A DNA stretch of 64,000 nucleotides from Kordia periserrulae (GTDB taxonomy: Bacteria > Bacteroidota > Bacteroidia > Flavobacteriales > Flavobacteriaceae): positions 1 to 64,000 of the forward strand of contig NZ_QBKT01000001.1 in assembly GCF_003054265.1 (NCBI RefSeq), in the 5' to 3' direction. Under the pieces are notes generated by a model, which was not told the origin of the DNA, made no database searches, and was given only the letters and a program-made list of their open reading frames with translations. The translations under genes were made by a program, and so were the position numbers. Below, in pieces: positions 26,086 through 56,110 of the stretch (the stretch's first letter is position 1; each line of letters begins with the position of its first letter).

Positions 26086-26640
26086 TCGCAGGCATCTCGA
26101 CTGCGCTTGATGTGACGGCTTTTTTAATGTGTCAATTTGATAATTTGAAAATGTACCAATGATTTGTTATTCACTTTTGTCATAAAATTTGAATGACATT
26201 TTTTATACAAGCTTAGGAAGTCACATGAAAAAATCTCAGTACTAACATCTCAAAATCATCTAAGTTTCACAGCACGTCAGTTCGAGTGGCGAACGTAGTT
26301 CGTTGTATCGAGAACAGCTAAGAATTGCTAAAGTTTATAAGGATTCAAAATTTTAAGGATCAAAGTACTTCTCGATACAAAATTCTTTCAGAATTTCACT
26401 CGAAGTGACGGTTTTTTTAATGTGTCAATTTGAAAATTTGAAAATGTACCAATGGTTTTTATTTAGAAATTAAGACTGAGATAGCCTCATATGAAACGAT
26501 TGCTTTTTTAGAATCTTAAATGCGCTCAATTCGTCAGTAATTTAAAATTCAACATCTAACATTCAAAATTTTTAGTTTTAAAATACTTCTCGATACAAAA
26601 TTCTTTCAGAATTTCACTCGAAGCGACGGTTTGATGTTTT
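26086..26640. repeat. Cluster of REP-like dispersed repeats in the amylase/acyl-CoA dehydrogenase gap
   Basis: The 843-bp gap 25863-26705 has no supportable gene. It contains a class A palindrome (catctcgactgcgcttgatg, 26093-26112) and class B elements near 26280-26330, 26367-26415 and 26583-26632, built on cttctcgataca and tcactcgaag. The phrase tgtcaatttga..aatttgaaaatgtaccaatg occurs twice (about 26130 and 26425). The same class B element recurs, inverted, in the trp operon. Confidence 0.85.
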
Positions 26641-41578: not shown

Positions 41579-42973
41579 ATGTACAAACTGAAAACAACCC
41601 ATAAAAAAATCTTAGCAGATACCATCACGCCTGTGAGTGTCTACTTGAAAATCAGAGATAAATTTCCAAACAGTCTGCTGTTGGAAAGTAGTGACTATCA
41701 CGCCAGCGATAACAGTTTTTCGTATGTATGTTGCAATCCGATTGCGAGTATTAAGGTGGAAAATGAAACGCTTACGCGAGAATTTCCAAATGGTTCCTCA
41801 AATGCAACGCCAATTACCGCAACCACCAATGTTCCTGAGCTGATTCACGAGTTTTCGCAACAGTTTGAAACGGATGAAAACGACTTTAAATTTATCAACA
41901 ATGGTTTGTTTGGCTACATTGCTTACGATGCGGTTCGTTACTTTGAATCAGTCGAAATTTCCAAAAAAGAACAATCGCTTCACATTCCCGACATGTACTA
42001 CGCGATTTACCAAAATATCATTGCGTTCAATCATTTCAAAAATGAAGCGTATCTCTTTTCACATTGCTATGAAAAAGAAAACAATATTGCCGAAATTGAA
42101 CATTTATTAAGTACCAAAAACTTTGCTACCTATAAATTTTCAATCGACGGCGAACGCGAATCCAACATGGACGATGCGCAATTCAAGCAAAATGTGGCGC
42201 TGGCAAAAAAGCATTGTTATCGTGGTGATGTGTTTCAGTTGGTGTTGTCGCGACGATTCATTCAAAAATTTAAAGGAGACGAATTCAATGTATATCGCGC
42301 ATTGCGAAGTATCAATCCGTCGCCATATTTGTTCTATTTTGACTATGGCGATTTTAAAATCTTTGGTTCCTCGCCCGAAGCACAATTGGTCGTGAATGAA
42401 GGTCACACCGAAATTCACCCAATTGCAGGAACTTTTAAACGTACTGGAAATGATGAAGAAGATGCCGCTTCCGCGAAAAAATTGTTCAACGATCCAAAAG
42501 AAAATGCCGAACACGTGATGCTGGTAGATTTAGCGCGAAATGATTTAAGCCGAAATGGAAATCAAGTCAAAGTGGAAACCTATAAAGAATTGCAATTCTT
42601 TTCGCATGTGATTCATTTGGTATCAAAAGTCACAGCCAAAAAGCACGAAAACGTACCAACCATGCAAGTTGTGGCAGACACATTTCCCGCAGGAACGCTG
42701 AGTGGCGCACCAAAACACAAAGCTATGCAATTGATAGAAAAATACGAAACCTCTAACCGCGATTTTTACGGTGGCGCGATTGGCTTTATGGACTTTCAAG
42801 GAAACTTCAATCACGCGATCATGATTCGAACATTTCTAAGCAAAAACCACAAATTGCACTATCAAGCAGGCGCAGGAATTGTAGCAAAATCAAACGAAGA
42901 AAATGAAAACCAAGAAGTATATAACAAACTCAGAGCCTTAAACACAGCACTGGAAATTGCAGAAACAATCTAG
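41579..42973 (+). CDS. trpE: Anthranilate synthase component I
   Basis: A 464-residue enzyme making anthranilate from chorismate and ammonia with TrpG. Motifs are LLLESSDYHASDN near residues 34-46 (the Trp feedback-binding LLESS), GDVFQLVLSRRF, IFGSSPEAQLVV, LVDLARNDLSRNG, and the catalytic GTLSGAPKHKAMQLIEKYE. It begins 26 nt after the attenuator stem. Its feedback site looks intact, so both attenuation and allostery are expected. A 254-nt repeat-filled gap separates it from trpG. Confidence 0.98.
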   Translation: MYKLKTTHKKILADTITPVSVYLKIRDKFPNSLLLESSDYHASDNSFSYVCCNPIASIKVENETLTREFPNGSSNATPITATTNVPELIHEFSQQFETDENDFKFINNGLFGYIAYDAVRYFESVEISKKEQSLHIPDMYYAIYQNIIAFNHFKNEAYLFSHCYEKENNIAEIEHLLSTKNFATYKFSIDGERESNMDDAQFKQNVALAKKHCYRGDVFQLVLSRRFIQKFKGDEFNVYRALRSINPSPYLFYFDYGDFKIFGSSPEAQLVVNEGHTEIHPIAGTFKRTGNDEEDAASAKKLFNDPKENAEHVMLVDLARNDLSRNGNQVKVETYKELQFFSHVIHLVSKVTAKKHENVPTMQVVADTFPAGTLSGAPKHKAMQLIEKYETSNRDFYGGAIGFMDFQGNFNHAIMIRTFLSKNHKLHYQAGAGIVAKSNEENENQEVYNKLRALNTALEIAETI

Positions 42974-42976
42974 GAA

Positions 42977-43067
42977 TGTTGAATGTTGAATGTTGAATGT
43001 TGAATGTTGAATGTTGAATGTTGAATGTTGAATGTTGAATGTTGAATGTTGAATGTTGAATGTTGAA
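42977..43067. repeat. Heptamer tract (TGTTGAA)x13
   Basis: Exactly thirteen 7-base units (91 nt) start two bases after the trpE stop codon. No ORF function is proposed. Confidence 0.97.
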
Positions 43068-43068
43068 T

Positions 43069-43185
43069 AAAAATTATGAACTCAAAAGAAAACATTGGTA
43101 CATTTTCAAATTATCAAATTGTTACATTAAAAAACGTCACTTCGAGTATTTTTCTGAAAGAAAAATGTATCGAGAAGGACTATGA
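43069..43185. repeat. Dispersed repeat (class B), copy in the trpE-trpG gap
   Basis: The block runs from the end of the heptamer tract through aaagaaaacattggtacatt, caaattatcaaattgttaca, cgtcacttcgag and tgtatcgagaag. It is almost identical to 43924-44040 and recurs inverted at 26360-26460. Only a few substitutions separate the two trp copies. Confidence 0.9.
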
Positions 43186-43227
43186 AACTAAAAAAAAGCA
43201 ACAGCCAAAGGCTAAAAGCAAAAACAA

Positions 43228-43794
43228 ATGAAAAAAGTATTAGTCATAGACAATTACGACAGCTTCACCTACAATCTTGTCCATTATTTGGAAGATTTGG
43301 AGTGTGATGTCACGGTCAAAAGAAACGACCAATTATCGCTAGAAGAAGTTGCAGCGTATGAAAAAATCATTCTTTCGCCAGGACCAGGAATTCCAGATGA
43401 AGCAGGTTTGCTAAAGCCAATCATTGAAAAATACGCGGCAACCAAAAGTATTTTGGGTGTGTGTTTGGGACAGCAAGCGATTGGAGAAGTTTTTGGAGGT
43501 TCGCTTACCAATTTAGAACAAGTATATCACGGCGTTGCGACAAAAGTGAACGTTACTGTGGATGATGAATCTTTATTTAAAGATTTACCAGAAACTTTTG
43601 ACGTGGGACGTTACCATTCGTGGATTGTCGCAAGTCCGCTTCCAGAAACCCTAGAAGCAACTTCGTATGATGAAAACGGACAAATCATGTCGTTGCGCCA
43701 TAAAGAATACGATGTGCGTGCTGTGCAATACCATCCAGAATCGGTACTCACGCCACATGGAAAACAGATACTTGAAAATTGGGTGCGTAGTTAG
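43228..43794 (+). CDS. trpG: Anthranilate synthase component II (glutamine amidotransferase)
   Basis: A 188-residue class I glutamine amidotransferase that feeds ammonia to TrpE. The nucleophile C79 is in LGVCLGQQAIG, and the His-Glu pair is in AVQYHPESVLTPHG near the C-terminus. The oxyanion region SPGPGIPDEAG is intact. The stop is directly followed by an 18-copy heptamer tract. Some TrpG proteins also serve folate synthesis; the operon context favours tryptophan. Confidence 0.97.
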   Translation: MKKVLVIDNYDSFTYNLVHYLEDLECDVTVKRNDQLSLEEVAAYEKIILSPGPGIPDEAGLLKPIIEKYAATKSILGVCLGQQAIGEVFGGSLTNLEQVYHGVATKVNVTVDDESLFKDLPETFDVGRYHSWIVASPLPETLEATSYDENGQIMSLRHKEYDVRAVQYHPESVLTPHGKQILENWVRS

Positions 43795-43797
43795 GAA

Positions 43798-43923
43798 TGT
43801 TGAATGTTGAATGTTGAATGTTGAATGTTGAATGTTGAATGTTGAATGTTGAATGTTGAATGTTGAATGTTGAATGTTGAATGTTGAATGTTGAATGTTG
43901 AATGTTGAATGTTGAATGTTGAA
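43798..43923. repeat. Heptamer tract (TGTTGAA)x18
   Basis: Exactly eighteen 7-base units (126 nt), starting three bases after the trpG stop. Same unit as 42977-43067 but five copies longer, direct evidence that copy number varies. Confidence 0.97.
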
Positions 43924-44040
43924 TAAAAATTATAAACTCAAAAGAAAACATTGGTACATTTTCAAATTATCAAATTGTTACATTAAAAAACGTCACTTCG
44001 AGTGTTTTTCTGAAAGAAAAATGTATCGAGAAGTACTATG
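43924..44040. repeat. Dispersed repeat (class B), copy in the trpG-trpD gap
   Basis: Near-exact duplicate of 43069-43185, in the same order behind its heptamer tract. After 44041 the two gaps diverge. The remainder of this 374-nt gap (44041-44168) holds only AT-rich phrases such as caatcttttaatc. Confidence 0.9.
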
Positions 44041-44168
44041 AAACAAAAAAATAATCATAAAAAGTCAAAGTCTCTGAGAAACCATCTCAATACTCAATAC
44101 TAAGAAAAAACAACCATAAAACTTGAAGCATTCAATCATTAAATGTTTCAATCTTTTAATCAAAATAC

Positions 44169-45161: not shown

Positions 45162-45165
45162 TTAT

Positions 45166-45254
45166 CGTCATGCGGAACCCTATGCTCAACTTGATTGGGT
45201 ATTGATTCAGCATCACACAAAAAGAGAAAAGTAGATTCCTGCCTGCGCAGGAAT
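45166..45254. repeat. REP-like elements (classes C and D) in the trpD-trpC gap
   Basis: Class C: cgtcatgcggaaccctatgc, then tcaacttgattgggtattga and ttcagcatcacac. Class D: attcctgc-ctgc-gcaggaat (45235-45254), a perfect 8-bp stem with a 4-nt loop. Confidence 0.85.
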
Positions 45255-46124: not shown

Positions 46125-46835
46125 ATGAAAAACTTGAAACTCAAAATATGCGGAATGAAATACGAAGACAATATAACAGCTGTAAGTCACTTACTGCCTG
46201 ACTATTTGGGTTTTATATTTTACAGAAAATCGTCACGCTTTTTCGAGACCGTCATTCCTGAGATTCCAAAAGAAATAAAGAAAACTGGGGTTTTTGTAAA
46301 TGCTTCTGTCGAAGAAATCATCAAAAAAGTCACCTTATACGATTTACAAGCGATACAATTACATGGAAGTGAAAGTCCTGAATTTTGTGAAGAATTGAAA
46401 AAAGCATGTCACATCGAGCGCAGTCGAGATGCACATGATAAGATGCGGAATCAAGTTCAGCATGATGATTTCAATTTGCACGTTGCGCCAATTGAAATCA
46501 TCAACGTATTTTCAATAAAAGACGAATTTGACTTTGCTACTTTGCAACCATACGAGCCTTTTGTAGACTATTTTTTGTTTGATACGAAAGGAAAATTACC
46601 TGGCGGAAATGGTGTTGCGTTTGATTGGACGGTTTTGGAAAACTATCCGTCTACCAAACCATTTTTCTTGAGTGGCGGCATTGGACTGGAAACTATCACA
46701 AAATTGAACGATTTTATGAAAAGTAATGCGTCAACATATTGTTATGCGTTGGATGTAAATAGTAAATTTGAAATCGTTCCAGGATTGAAGCATATTGAAG
46801 ATTTGAAAGTTTTTAAAGAAGAAATTAATTGTTAG
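46125..46835 (+). CDS. trpF: Phosphoribosylanthranilate isomerase carrying an in-frame REP insertion
   Basis: A 236-residue TIM-barrel isomerase, longer than the usual 200-215. The N-terminal KICGM with catalytic Cys9 and the D of FLFDTKGKLPGGNGVAFDW are intact, as are the phosphate sites FFLSGGIGLET and YALDVNSKFE. Residues about 95-118 (CHIERSRDAHDKMRNQVQHD plus a few more) have no place in the family and are encoded by REP-like DNA (46408-46475), located after the LHGSES strand and an outer helix. The frame stays open across it, and the catalytic residues lie outside it, so the enzyme may well be active. Confidence 0.93.
   Translation: MKNLKLKICGMKYEDNITAVSHLLPDYLGFIFYRKSSRFFETVIPEIPKEIKKTGVFVNASVEEIIKKVTLYDLQAIQLHGSESPEFCEELKKACHIERSRDAHDKMRNQVQHDDFNLHVAPIEIINVFSIKDEFDFATLQPYEPFVDYFLFDTKGKLPGGNGVAFDWTVLENYPSTKPFFLSGGIGLETITKLNDFMKSNASTYCYALDVNSKFEIVPGLKHIEDLKVFKEEINC
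46408..46475. repeat. REP-like elements (classes A and C) inside trpF
   Basis: Class A core catcgagcgcagtcgagatg (46412-46431) equals 56091-56110 exactly. Class C core gcggaatcaagttcagcatg follows at once. Together they add about 24 codons in frame. Confidence 0.88.
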
Positions 46836-46850
46836 CTGCTTTATGAGAGC

Positions 46851-46978
46851 CTGAATCAAGTTCAGGCTGACATAAGAAAACAAAATATCATCACGCTGAA
46901 CCTTGTACTCAACTTGATTGGGTATCGACTCAGCATCACACAAGAAAAACACATAAAAGTTTCCCGATTGCTCGGGAA
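46851..46978. repeat. REP-like elements in the trpF-trpB gap
   Basis: gcctgaa-tcaag-ttcaggc (about 46851-46869) is a 7-bp hairpin. A class C copy follows at about 46890-46940 (tcacgctgaaccttgtactc, tcaacttgattgggtatcga). ttcccga-ttgc-tcgggaa (46961-46978) is a class D hairpin ending 18 nt before trpB. Confidence 0.85.
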
Positions 46979-51229: not shown

Positions 51230-51736
51230 ATGATACAAAAATTATGCACTATTACTTTGCTTTTGTGCGCTTTCGTAACAGTTCAAGCACAAGAATTCGA
51301 AATTCCTGATTACACATTAAAAAAAGCGGAAGATTACGCTAAATACGAAAAAGATGTCGTTGCTGCCACAAAATGGCTTATTCAGACACCTGTAAATTCA
51401 CAAAAAAACAAGCGTACGATGGTACATGCTTTTTTGTTAAAATGGTTTGAAGGTACACCTAGTATTACTTTTGACATCAATGCTGAAATCGTTACTTTCA
51501 TGGAAGAATCGCCTGAATCATTTATGATTTATTTATCAGGATGGGCATCGTATTGCATAGAAAATAAAGATTATAAAAATAGTTTACAGGGAAATGTTCA
51601 AGGAATTGAAAGTGTCATTGCTTTTTATGATGCTAATAAAAAAATTACAGGCAAAATAAAACCTATTGAACGCTATAAAAAATTAAAGAAAAAAGGAAAG
51701 CTAGAAGCGCATTTAAAATCAAAACTTAAGTCTTAA
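51230..51736 (+). CDS. Exported hypothetical protein
   Basis: A 168-residue protein with a signal peptide (MIQKLCTITLLLCAFVTVQA, cut near residue 20-21). The mature part has charged helices, FLLKWFEGTPSITFDINAEI in the middle and a very basic tail (KKLKKKGKLEAHLKSKLKS). Small proteins of this look are common in Flavobacteriaceae but I cannot assign a family. Its stop overlaps the convergent glycosylase-like gene by 4 nt. A -7 box TATATTTG lies at 51202-51209. Confidence 0.75.
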   Translation: MIQKLCTITLLLCAFVTVQAQEFEIPDYTLKKAEDYAKYEKDVVAATKWLIQTPVNSQKNKRTMVHAFLLKWFEGTPSITFDINAEIVTFMEESPESFMIYLSGWASYCIENKDYKNSLQGNVQGIESVIAFYDANKKITGKIKPIERYKKLKKKGKLEAHLKSKLKS

Positions 51737-52455
51737 AAAAACTCCTTATACTGCATCACCCGAAAGTCAAAAGTTGTGAATTTCGGGTTTTGTTTTTTTA
51801 GCTTTTTATAGAGTGAAATGCTTCCAATAGCACGATTTGCCGCGCCTGAAGATGACGTTAAGGAAACGGTTTTTATCCATCTCGACTGCACTCGATGTGA
51901 CAATGAATGTTTTGAAGAAGATTCTTGTTCAGCATGACGTCTTTTTTGAGCTAGACTCAAATCAAATTTATGAATTCTTGGAACTTCGTTGGAAACGACT
52001 TCTAGTTGTAATTTGTATTGCTTGATGTGTTTTCGGAAGAAATATTCAGGTCCGTTTTTAGAGTTTCCACCTGTAAATAATAACGTATGAATATTTGGAA
52101 ACTTTTGTAAATATCCAATAACATCGCGTAATTGTATGTTTTGCATGCCCAAATCGGATGCATCAATTTTTTCGCGTTTACAGCTGTCTACAATGTCACA
52201 AACGCCGATTTTATGCTGTATTAAAAAGTCTTTTCGCTGGTCAATTGCTTCTTGTGAATTGTCGTAACGAAGTTTTAAATCATAAATTTCATCCAAAAAC
52301 AACCATAAGGAATTGTAATAACTTCCATAGCAGAAATCCACATCTTTTTCGAGTAAATCACCTGTAGAAAATCGCGGCGGCGGCAAAGTTCCTACAATAA
52401 GTTTCTCAGTATCATCGTGAATAAAAGGTGCGTATGGATGCTTGTGAAAAAACAT
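51733..52455 (-). CDS. Uracil-DNA glycosylase-like protein with an in-frame REP insertion
   Basis: A 240-residue protein resembling the uracil-DNA glycosylase superfamily (VGTLPPPRFSTGD near residue 21, SYYNSLWLFLDEI, and TLLFTGGNS at 124-132). The exact subfamily is uncertain. Residues about 168-193 (AQKRRHAEQESSSKHSLSHR and following) are low-complexity, basic and coded by REP-like DNA. After them the protein resumes as IKTVSLTSSSGAANRAIGS, which resembles the family's C-terminal SPS/Asn region. The frame is open throughout, so it is annotated as intact. Confidence 0.75.
   Translation of the reverse strand: MFFHKHPYAPFIHDDTEKLIVGTLPPPRFSTGDLLEKDVDFCYGSYYNSLWLFLDEIYDLKLRYDNSQEAIDQRKDFLIQHKIGVCDIVDSCKREKIDASDLGMQNIQLRDVIGYLQKFPNIHTLLFTGGNSKNGPEYFFRKHIKQYKLQLEVVSNEVPRIHKFDLSLAQKRRHAEQESSSKHSLSHRVQSRWIKTVSLTSSSGAANRAIGSISLYKKLKKQNPKFTTFDFRVMQYKEFF
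51877..51954. repeat. REP-like elements (classes A and C) inside the glycosylase-like gene
   Basis: Class A catctcgactgcactcgatg, then tgacaatg, then class C gattcttgttcagcatgacg. The same two classes occur together inside trpF, but in a different relative order and orientation. Confidence 0.85.
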
Positions 52456-56090: not shown

Positions 56091-56110
56091 CATCGAGCGC
56101 AGTCGAGATG
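56091..56110. repeat. REP-like class A palindrome near the rluD stop
   Basis: catcgagcgcagtcgagatg, identical to the core inside trpF (46412-46431). It lies 5 nt beyond the minus-strand RluD stop. Confidence 0.88.

Follow-up and report, generated by a model that had tools for sequence, protein, structure and literature searches.

BIMEs and RAYT-mobilised REPs consist of tagged hairpins in alternating orientation. REPs tagged by CGTC or TGTC are known to include copies inside the ORFs of many genes, and RPE-4 and RPE-6 of Rickettsia have been placed in the CGTC group, as far as the consulted part of the source describes it (PMC3733652). As given there, the CGTC superfamily is defined by a CGTC/TGTC tag, a stem of 8-9 bp that starts with A/T pairs, and a loop of 4-5 bases (PMC3733652). 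In recB of Xanthomonas, the REPs of X. campestris and X. oryzae differ from each other but lie at nearly one position; apart from this case, REPs in genes of the same category are described there as occupying different sites (PMC3733652). The main text of that paper names Bacteroidetes once and contains no word beginning with "flavobacter", and a 2025 REP survey includes two Flavobacterium species, the word "intragenic" being absent from the consulted part of its text (PMC12306157). In the open-licence literature, at the level of titles and the beginnings of abstracts, no description of REPs in TrpF or of intragenic REPs in Flavobacteriia was found.

The locus compared here with these systems lies in the genome of Kordia periserrulae, and the window denotes the whole stretch of DNA analysed (64,000 nucleotides), which belongs to a genome of the genus Kordia. 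The features concerned are as follows.

46125..46835, plus strand: trpF, phosphoribosylanthranilate isomerase of 236 aa, the host gene (open ORF; PRAI profile; PDB homologues)
46407..46431, plus strand: class A REP-type palindrome with a TGTCA tag, read in frame as CHIERSRD (exact copies elsewhere; tag; covarying arms)
46432..46441, plus strand: ten-base spacer between the class A and class C palindromes (interval between both matches)
46442..46469, minus strand: inverted class C element of the CGTC type (46442-46464) and its degenerate tag; in-frame translation KMRNQVQHDD (match to the class C consensus)
46416..46481, plus strand: codons 98-119, the predicted disordered part of the alpha4-beta5 loop (AlphaFold2 pLDDT)
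46851..46865, minus strand: core of a class C element between trpF and trpB, listed as a comparison (sequence match)
56091..56110, plus strand: exact class A copy outside ORFs of at least 200 aa, for comparison (sequence match)

The host ORF scores 100.1 bits against the PRAI profile (cut-off 22.7), its product has the TrpF structures 1dl3 and 1lbm/1nsj as PDB homologues, and it is flanked by ORFs read as trpC and trpB. The insert proper covers 46407-46469 (residues 95-115, about 21 codons) and is composed of two palindromes in opposite orientations, class A direct and class C inverted, with their tags at the outer ends. On the minus strand, the class C copy at 46442-46464 has one mismatch to the class C consensus, and its tag is degenerate in K. 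periserrulae (ATCAT) and intact (CGTCA) in Kordia sp. TARA_039. Relative to the solved TrpF structures, the alignment breaks at the insert: the first part stops at residue 92-95, and the second starts at residue 124 in 1lbm (strand beta5) and at residue 131 or beyond in the other structures. An AlphaFold2 model built from 26 sequences has a mean pLDDT of 85.9, with values below 50 at residues 98-119, between a helix (85-94) and a strand (124-131); in this model, the insert is the predicted disordered alpha4-beta5 loop on an otherwise well-predicted, intact barrel. The initial annotation had claimed that dispersed palindromic repeat DNA is inserted in frame within trpF, with the frame kept and the catalytic residues outside, and had asked whether it forms a surface loop. 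The presence of two dispersed repeats in frame is borne out (class A recurs at 56091, and both classes genome-wide), as are the open frame of 236 aa, the position of the catalytic Cys and Asp, which we take to be C9 and D153, outside the insert, and the placement in a loop of the predicted structure; the proposed extent of about 24 codons (46408-46475) gives way to the shorter interval above.

Both classes are repeat families of this genome. The class A 20-mer occurs exactly at 46412-46431 and 56091-56110 and with one mismatch at 26093-26112 and 51878-51897, and at up to three mismatches these amount to four places in the window, compared with none in 100 shuffles of it. Genome-wide at the same threshold, there are 80 class A and 33 class C places, and the reversed-pattern controls for both classes gave none in the K. 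periserrulae genome; from these 113 places, 108 distinct copies with flanks were taken into the counts below (77 class A and 31 class C). Class A is preceded by GTCA in 68 of 77 copies, the positions before the hairpin being T 94, G 91, T 96, and C 96 percent, followed by A 96 percent. Its outer arms covary (pair 1-20 is CG in 44, AT in 21, and TA in 8 of the 77; the fourth pair is CG in 68 and TA in 8), and its fold comprises four paired positions, two tandem conserved G-A mismatches, one pair, and a 6-base loop. Class C carries CGTC in 24 of 31 copies and TGTC in 2 more, and it forms an 8-bp stem with a 5-base loop, whose first pair is AT in all 31 copies and whose second is TA in 25 or AT in 6; the bases after its core are mostly TCA (T 65, C 74, and A 77 percent), the tail consensus of the superfamily being CCA. 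A stop-poor design of the repeats was considered and rejected, as class A variants are open in 4-5 of six frames and class C in three of six, no more than in shuffled sequences.

Other repeats are present in the window. The spacers before trpC (45163-45223) and trpB (46886-46946) share a 61-base repeat (85% identity) that resembles a longer class C element. Positions 1-2916 hold nine tandem units of 327 bases (86-97% alike to the first) within a long ORF on the minus strand that extends past the first position of the window. The heptamer GTTGAAT forms two arrays (42950-43092 and 43771-43948) adjoining repeated flanks, 42974-43195 and 43830-44051 being 98% alike.

All 11 Kordia genomes searched contain trpF, and the same combination of class A and class C is found in five of them (K. 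periserrulae and four of the ten others), with identical arrangement and boundaries across species and an open trpF frame in each. By the initial annotation, relatives carrying the segment as conserved amino acids without DNA likeness to the repeats would have spoken against its reading; in all five carriers, the insert DNA is still recognisable as repeat DNA, deviating from the core motifs by no more than one mismatch for class A and two for class C. In three of the 11, including K. algicida, class A occupies the same place in the opposite orientation, and of the remaining loops, one has a class A-like piece and two have no motif.

The same loop was then surveyed across the family, where 370 of 397 genomes gave a TrpF match, of which the best-scoring were listed. 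For the survey, 100 loci were drawn (11 from Kordia, 29 further ones from the best-scoring matches listed, 40 picked mainly for long spans, and 20 named), four of which failed the loop pattern. A REP motif was present in 42 of the 96 loops analysed; as the sample was picked partly for long spans, long loops are overrepresented in it, and this share is not a frequency in the population. The motif occurred in 74 of 4800 codon-shuffled loops (1.5%) and, among pieces of equal length taken from other parts of these genes, in 6 of 594. Of the 42, nine come from Kordia and 26 from genomes that belong to 22 other genus codes; the others are G034 and six named loci. G034, L090 (one of the named loci), and G244 (one of the 26) are marginal (class C at three mismatches), and G156, also one of the 26, is counted although its genome has no class C or class A place. 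Outside Kordia, the loop often contains other REP-type DNA: class C, read as RHAELVSAS or, reversed, as MLKQVQHD; family D, a CGTCATTACGAGG element of greater length, whose translation is RHYEE...; class A variants; and, in Aquimarina, a threefold HTEPVEW repeat. Two further loops, in G332 and G107, are D-like by translation only; they were missed by the DNA pattern and stand outside the 42.

Fillings differ even between genomes of one genus, G331 having class A where G143 has the RHYEE element, and G140 having class C where G328 has RHYEE (the latter read by eye, as it failed the loop pattern). On a TrpF tree built without the loop, with half of its forks drawn open, G244, G034, and L090 scored as "none", and G332 and G107 scored as D, the gain or loss of a REP has to be assumed at least 21 times and a change of REP type at least 36 times. 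Many relatives have a short TrpF loop without a motif, and no REP motif matched the long Polaribacter loops L097, L101, and L102. In 32 genomes from other families of the order, many of them from two families, the TrpF match spans at most 642 bases, compared with up to 741 inside the family among the matches listed; only spans were compared, and short REPs could hide within them. Two side observations concern individual TrpF genes. G348 (L175) has an intact class C REP, whereas all that is present in G169 (L133), which has the same genus code, is CGTCATGCT and a short remainder, resembling a REP that has been deleted in part. Among the matches listed, open frames of about 610-640 codons surround TrpF in G059, G061, G274, and others, suggesting a fusion of TrpF with a neighbour, perhaps TrpB.

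The repeats that fill these loops are also found elsewhere in the genomes concerned. Of 59 genomes searched, the class C pattern was found in 49 and the class A core in 56, with reversed controls giving no match for C and one for A. Fifteen of the 17 searched non-Kordia genomes with class C in the loop have 2 to 18 class C places, a count that may include the trpF copy itself, the exceptions being G029 (one place) and G156 (none, nor class A), and all seven non-Kordia genomes with a class A loop motif have at least four class A cores. The strict family D pattern, whose fixed spacing may miss copies, was found in 12 of the 59 genomes and in three of the ten searched genomes with a D loop by motif or translation. 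Thus, the repeats of filled TrpF loops are dispersed in most of the genomes concerned for A and C; for D, dispersal is not evident in most of the D-loop genomes searched. Most of the short-loop genomes searched also carry A or C, so the presence of REPs in a genome does not force a filled TrpF slot.

Genes other than trpF are affected as well. In the K. periserrulae genome, seven genes contain ten of the 108 class A and C copies in frame: two each in trpF (one A, one C), a 3-hydroxyacyl-CoA dehydrogenase, and an RND-type pump, and one each in hisA, purL, leuS, and a glycosylase-like gene; the six genes besides trpF all carry in-frame class A copies. HisA, PurL, and the dehydrogenase were named from matches above profile cut-offs, LeuS from a separate search, and the RND-type pump by reading; a 132-aa ORF in L013 spanning a class A copy was judged spurious and left out of the count. 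Besides trpF, one of these genes lies in the window.

51733..52455, minus strand: DNA-deoxyinosine glycosylase-like gene of 240 aa with in-frame REP DNA (TIGR04274, below cut-off)

This gene matches TIGR04274 with 44.8 bits, under the cut-off of 80, and has no Pfam match; it contains class A at 51878-51897 and a class C-like stretch at 51907-51937, and at this site relatives show REP-like DNA of other kinds, as judged by eye. Among the 11 Kordia species, the LeuS slot holds class A in three, a class C-like repeat in three, and no insert in five; the HisA slot is filled in four; and the PurL and dehydrogenase slots contain several kinds of REP-like DNA in nearly all (by eye). On a tree of the 11 Kordia species, for which four of these genes supplied 1612 columns, and with slot states assigned by eye, the changes needed are six for TrpF, six for LeuS, seven for PurL, four for HisA, and seven for the dehydrogenase. 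The slots in PurL, LeuS, the dehydrogenase, HisA, the RND-type pump, and the glycosylase behave like that of TrpF in Kordia. In non-Kordia genera, the LeuS slot is filled in two of 12 genes read and the PurL linker in three of 28. As a separate observation, the PurL linker of L367 (G037) has a different C-rich palindrome, CCCTCC-AAA-GGAGGG, in the same place.

We consider it quite probable that REP insertion is filtered by tolerance, that disordered loops are permissive slots open to refilling, and that the encoded peptide is most likely a functionless spacer. On this view, a REP would enter either alone or as part of an inverted pair, and it may have been mobilised in trans by a transposase of the Y1 (RAYT) type, although K. 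periserrulae itself has no match to one. Most coding insertions would be lost, and the survivors would be those that keep the frame and land in a disordered surface loop or linker. Such loops would then become permissive slots, in which REP copies may decay, be deleted, or give way to other REPs, and this turnover would result in different REPs at homologous codons among species; the spacer itself would most likely be tolerated, with little or no function of its own.

With regard to the mobiliser, no Y1_Tnp match was obtained in the K. periserrulae genome, and weak matches, one or two per genome, were obtained in six of the remaining ten Kordia, including G005, G006, and G007 in addition to the scanned loci L246, L248, and L252. 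At these three loci, no A, C, or D motif was found, and a REP-flanked transposase was rejected for them on these grounds. Of 30 Y1_Tnp loci of relatives, 18 were scanned: in L247, some 90 bp separate a class C core from the Y1 gene, L233 has such a core further off, and the remaining loci have no REP close by. As K. periserrulae has no Y1_Tnp of its own and a firm REP-transposase linkage was not seen, we only infer RAYT-type mobilisation.

In the five A+C species, 7 of 23 third codon positions are variable in the insert compared with 132 of 206 elsewhere in trpF (p 0.003); for first and second positions, the counts are 9 of 46 and 86 of 412 (p 1.0). The total DNA divergence of the insert is below the synonymous divergence of its host gene; in the spacer, 5 of 11 sites (46432-46442) are variable. 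The low third-position variation makes plain neutrality since one shared insertion insufficient as an account, and DNA-level constraint, recombination with other copies, or later gain could explain the low divergence. Uniformity through gene conversion with other REP copies, or through repeated recent gain of A+C, is conceivable in this light, though we do not favour it, as the five species have the same arrangement and boundaries, which speaks for one insertion. Such events would supplement insertion filtered by tolerance rather than displace it.

A stronger proposal, to which we give only limited credence, is that REPs preferentially find standing coding slots and are exchanged among them by recombination, being targeted or selected at the nucleic-acid level beyond mere tolerance. 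If so, REPs would have a stable coding niche, and loops of housekeeping proteins would be continually exchanged in this Flavobacteriales family. With respect to targeting, an empty LeuS slot in L258 keeps GTCA where filled genes have GTCA plus a hairpin. At empty TrpF slots, GTCA/TGAC was not clearly enriched (10 of 41 loops; 13 in 2655 bases compared with 85 in 23849), so target choice by the tag is unproven.

It also appears unlikely that the REPs persist because they serve the trp operon at the level of DNA or RNA, for instance in message stability or differential expression, with coding being incidental. The small variation at third positions agrees with such a role, as do intergenic copies and, in the window, the class C core that separates trpF from trpB. 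Among the trp loci read, a set chosen as TrpF relatives in which some genomes are present twice, 48 REP matches lie in spacers; trpF has 31 and other ORFs have 3, which favours insertion filtered by tolerance. However, RNA folding of the insert and its two halves was not clearly better than in shuffles (z -1.40, 0.13, and -0.50), on which basis stable RNA hairpins were discarded; many relatives have the short motif-free loop, and comparable slots exist in unrelated genes. Separately, at L079-L081, L083, L120, L121, and L123, which represent different genera, class C was observed in several spacers of the trp region, as if these collected REPs.

The initial annotation had spoken of repeat DNA exapted into coding sequence and had implied that the segment might be unique. 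Exaptation, in which the peptide would form a useful TrpF loop, for example by contacting a partner or adding stability, now seems improbable: five Kordia species retain one and the same insert of 21 codons, but other species have unrelated peptides or none in the same loop, the segment is predicted to be disordered, and there is no codon-position bias within the insert (p 0.37; five A+C species), so that purifying selection on codons leaves no visible signal, 23 codons giving little power. Nor is the segment unique, as four of the ten other Kordia share it, other genera fill the same loop, and six more genes have in-frame copies. Chance resemblance, an assembly error, or a broken gene has nothing in its favour and can be dismissed in view of the shuffled windows, the open frame in all five carriers, and the origin of these carriers in separate records.

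These observations place nominally "extragenic" elements in frame in core enzymes, with one enzyme loop holding different repeat types in many genera. The shared loops amount to a natural insertion experiment on where enzymes tolerate new sequence and provide a countable system for repeat DNA becoming coding sequence, in which filled and empty slots allow tolerance to be told from targeting. They also suggest that peptides such as VTSSAVEK, RHAELVSAS, or MLNQVQHD in proteins of these bacteria are translated repeats.

Compared with the described systems, the elements share tagged, alternating hairpins with BIMEs and RAYT-mobilised REPs, whereas K. periserrulae has no Y1_Tnp match and no firm REP-transposase linkage emerged. 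Their end tag, AT-first stem, opposite-orientation pairs, and intra-ORF copies resemble the CGTC superfamily as it is described in the consulted part of its source (PMC3733652). By that description, class C agrees with the superfamily in tag, stem, and loop (PMC3733652). Class A has the TGTC variant of the tag, but not the stem of 8-9 bp or the loop of 4-5 bases, and is therefore called REP-like rather than a superfamily member; its four-pair outer stem, two G-A mismatches, and 6-base loop lie outside the four families as described there (PMC3733652). The likeness to Rickettsia palindromic elements, already noted in the initial annotation, is sound by description, both being short palindromes in frame in conserved genes (10 of 108 copies here); the difference, again by description, is that several REP types share slots across a bacterial family. 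Xanthomonas recB, as far as that source describes it, is the nearest precedent for a shared slot (PMC3733652), involving one gene in two species, in contrast to many genera for TrpF and several genes in Kordia. In-frame REPs themselves are known; for coding slots that many genera have in common and in which REPs turn over on the scale seen here, no description was found in the literature searched.
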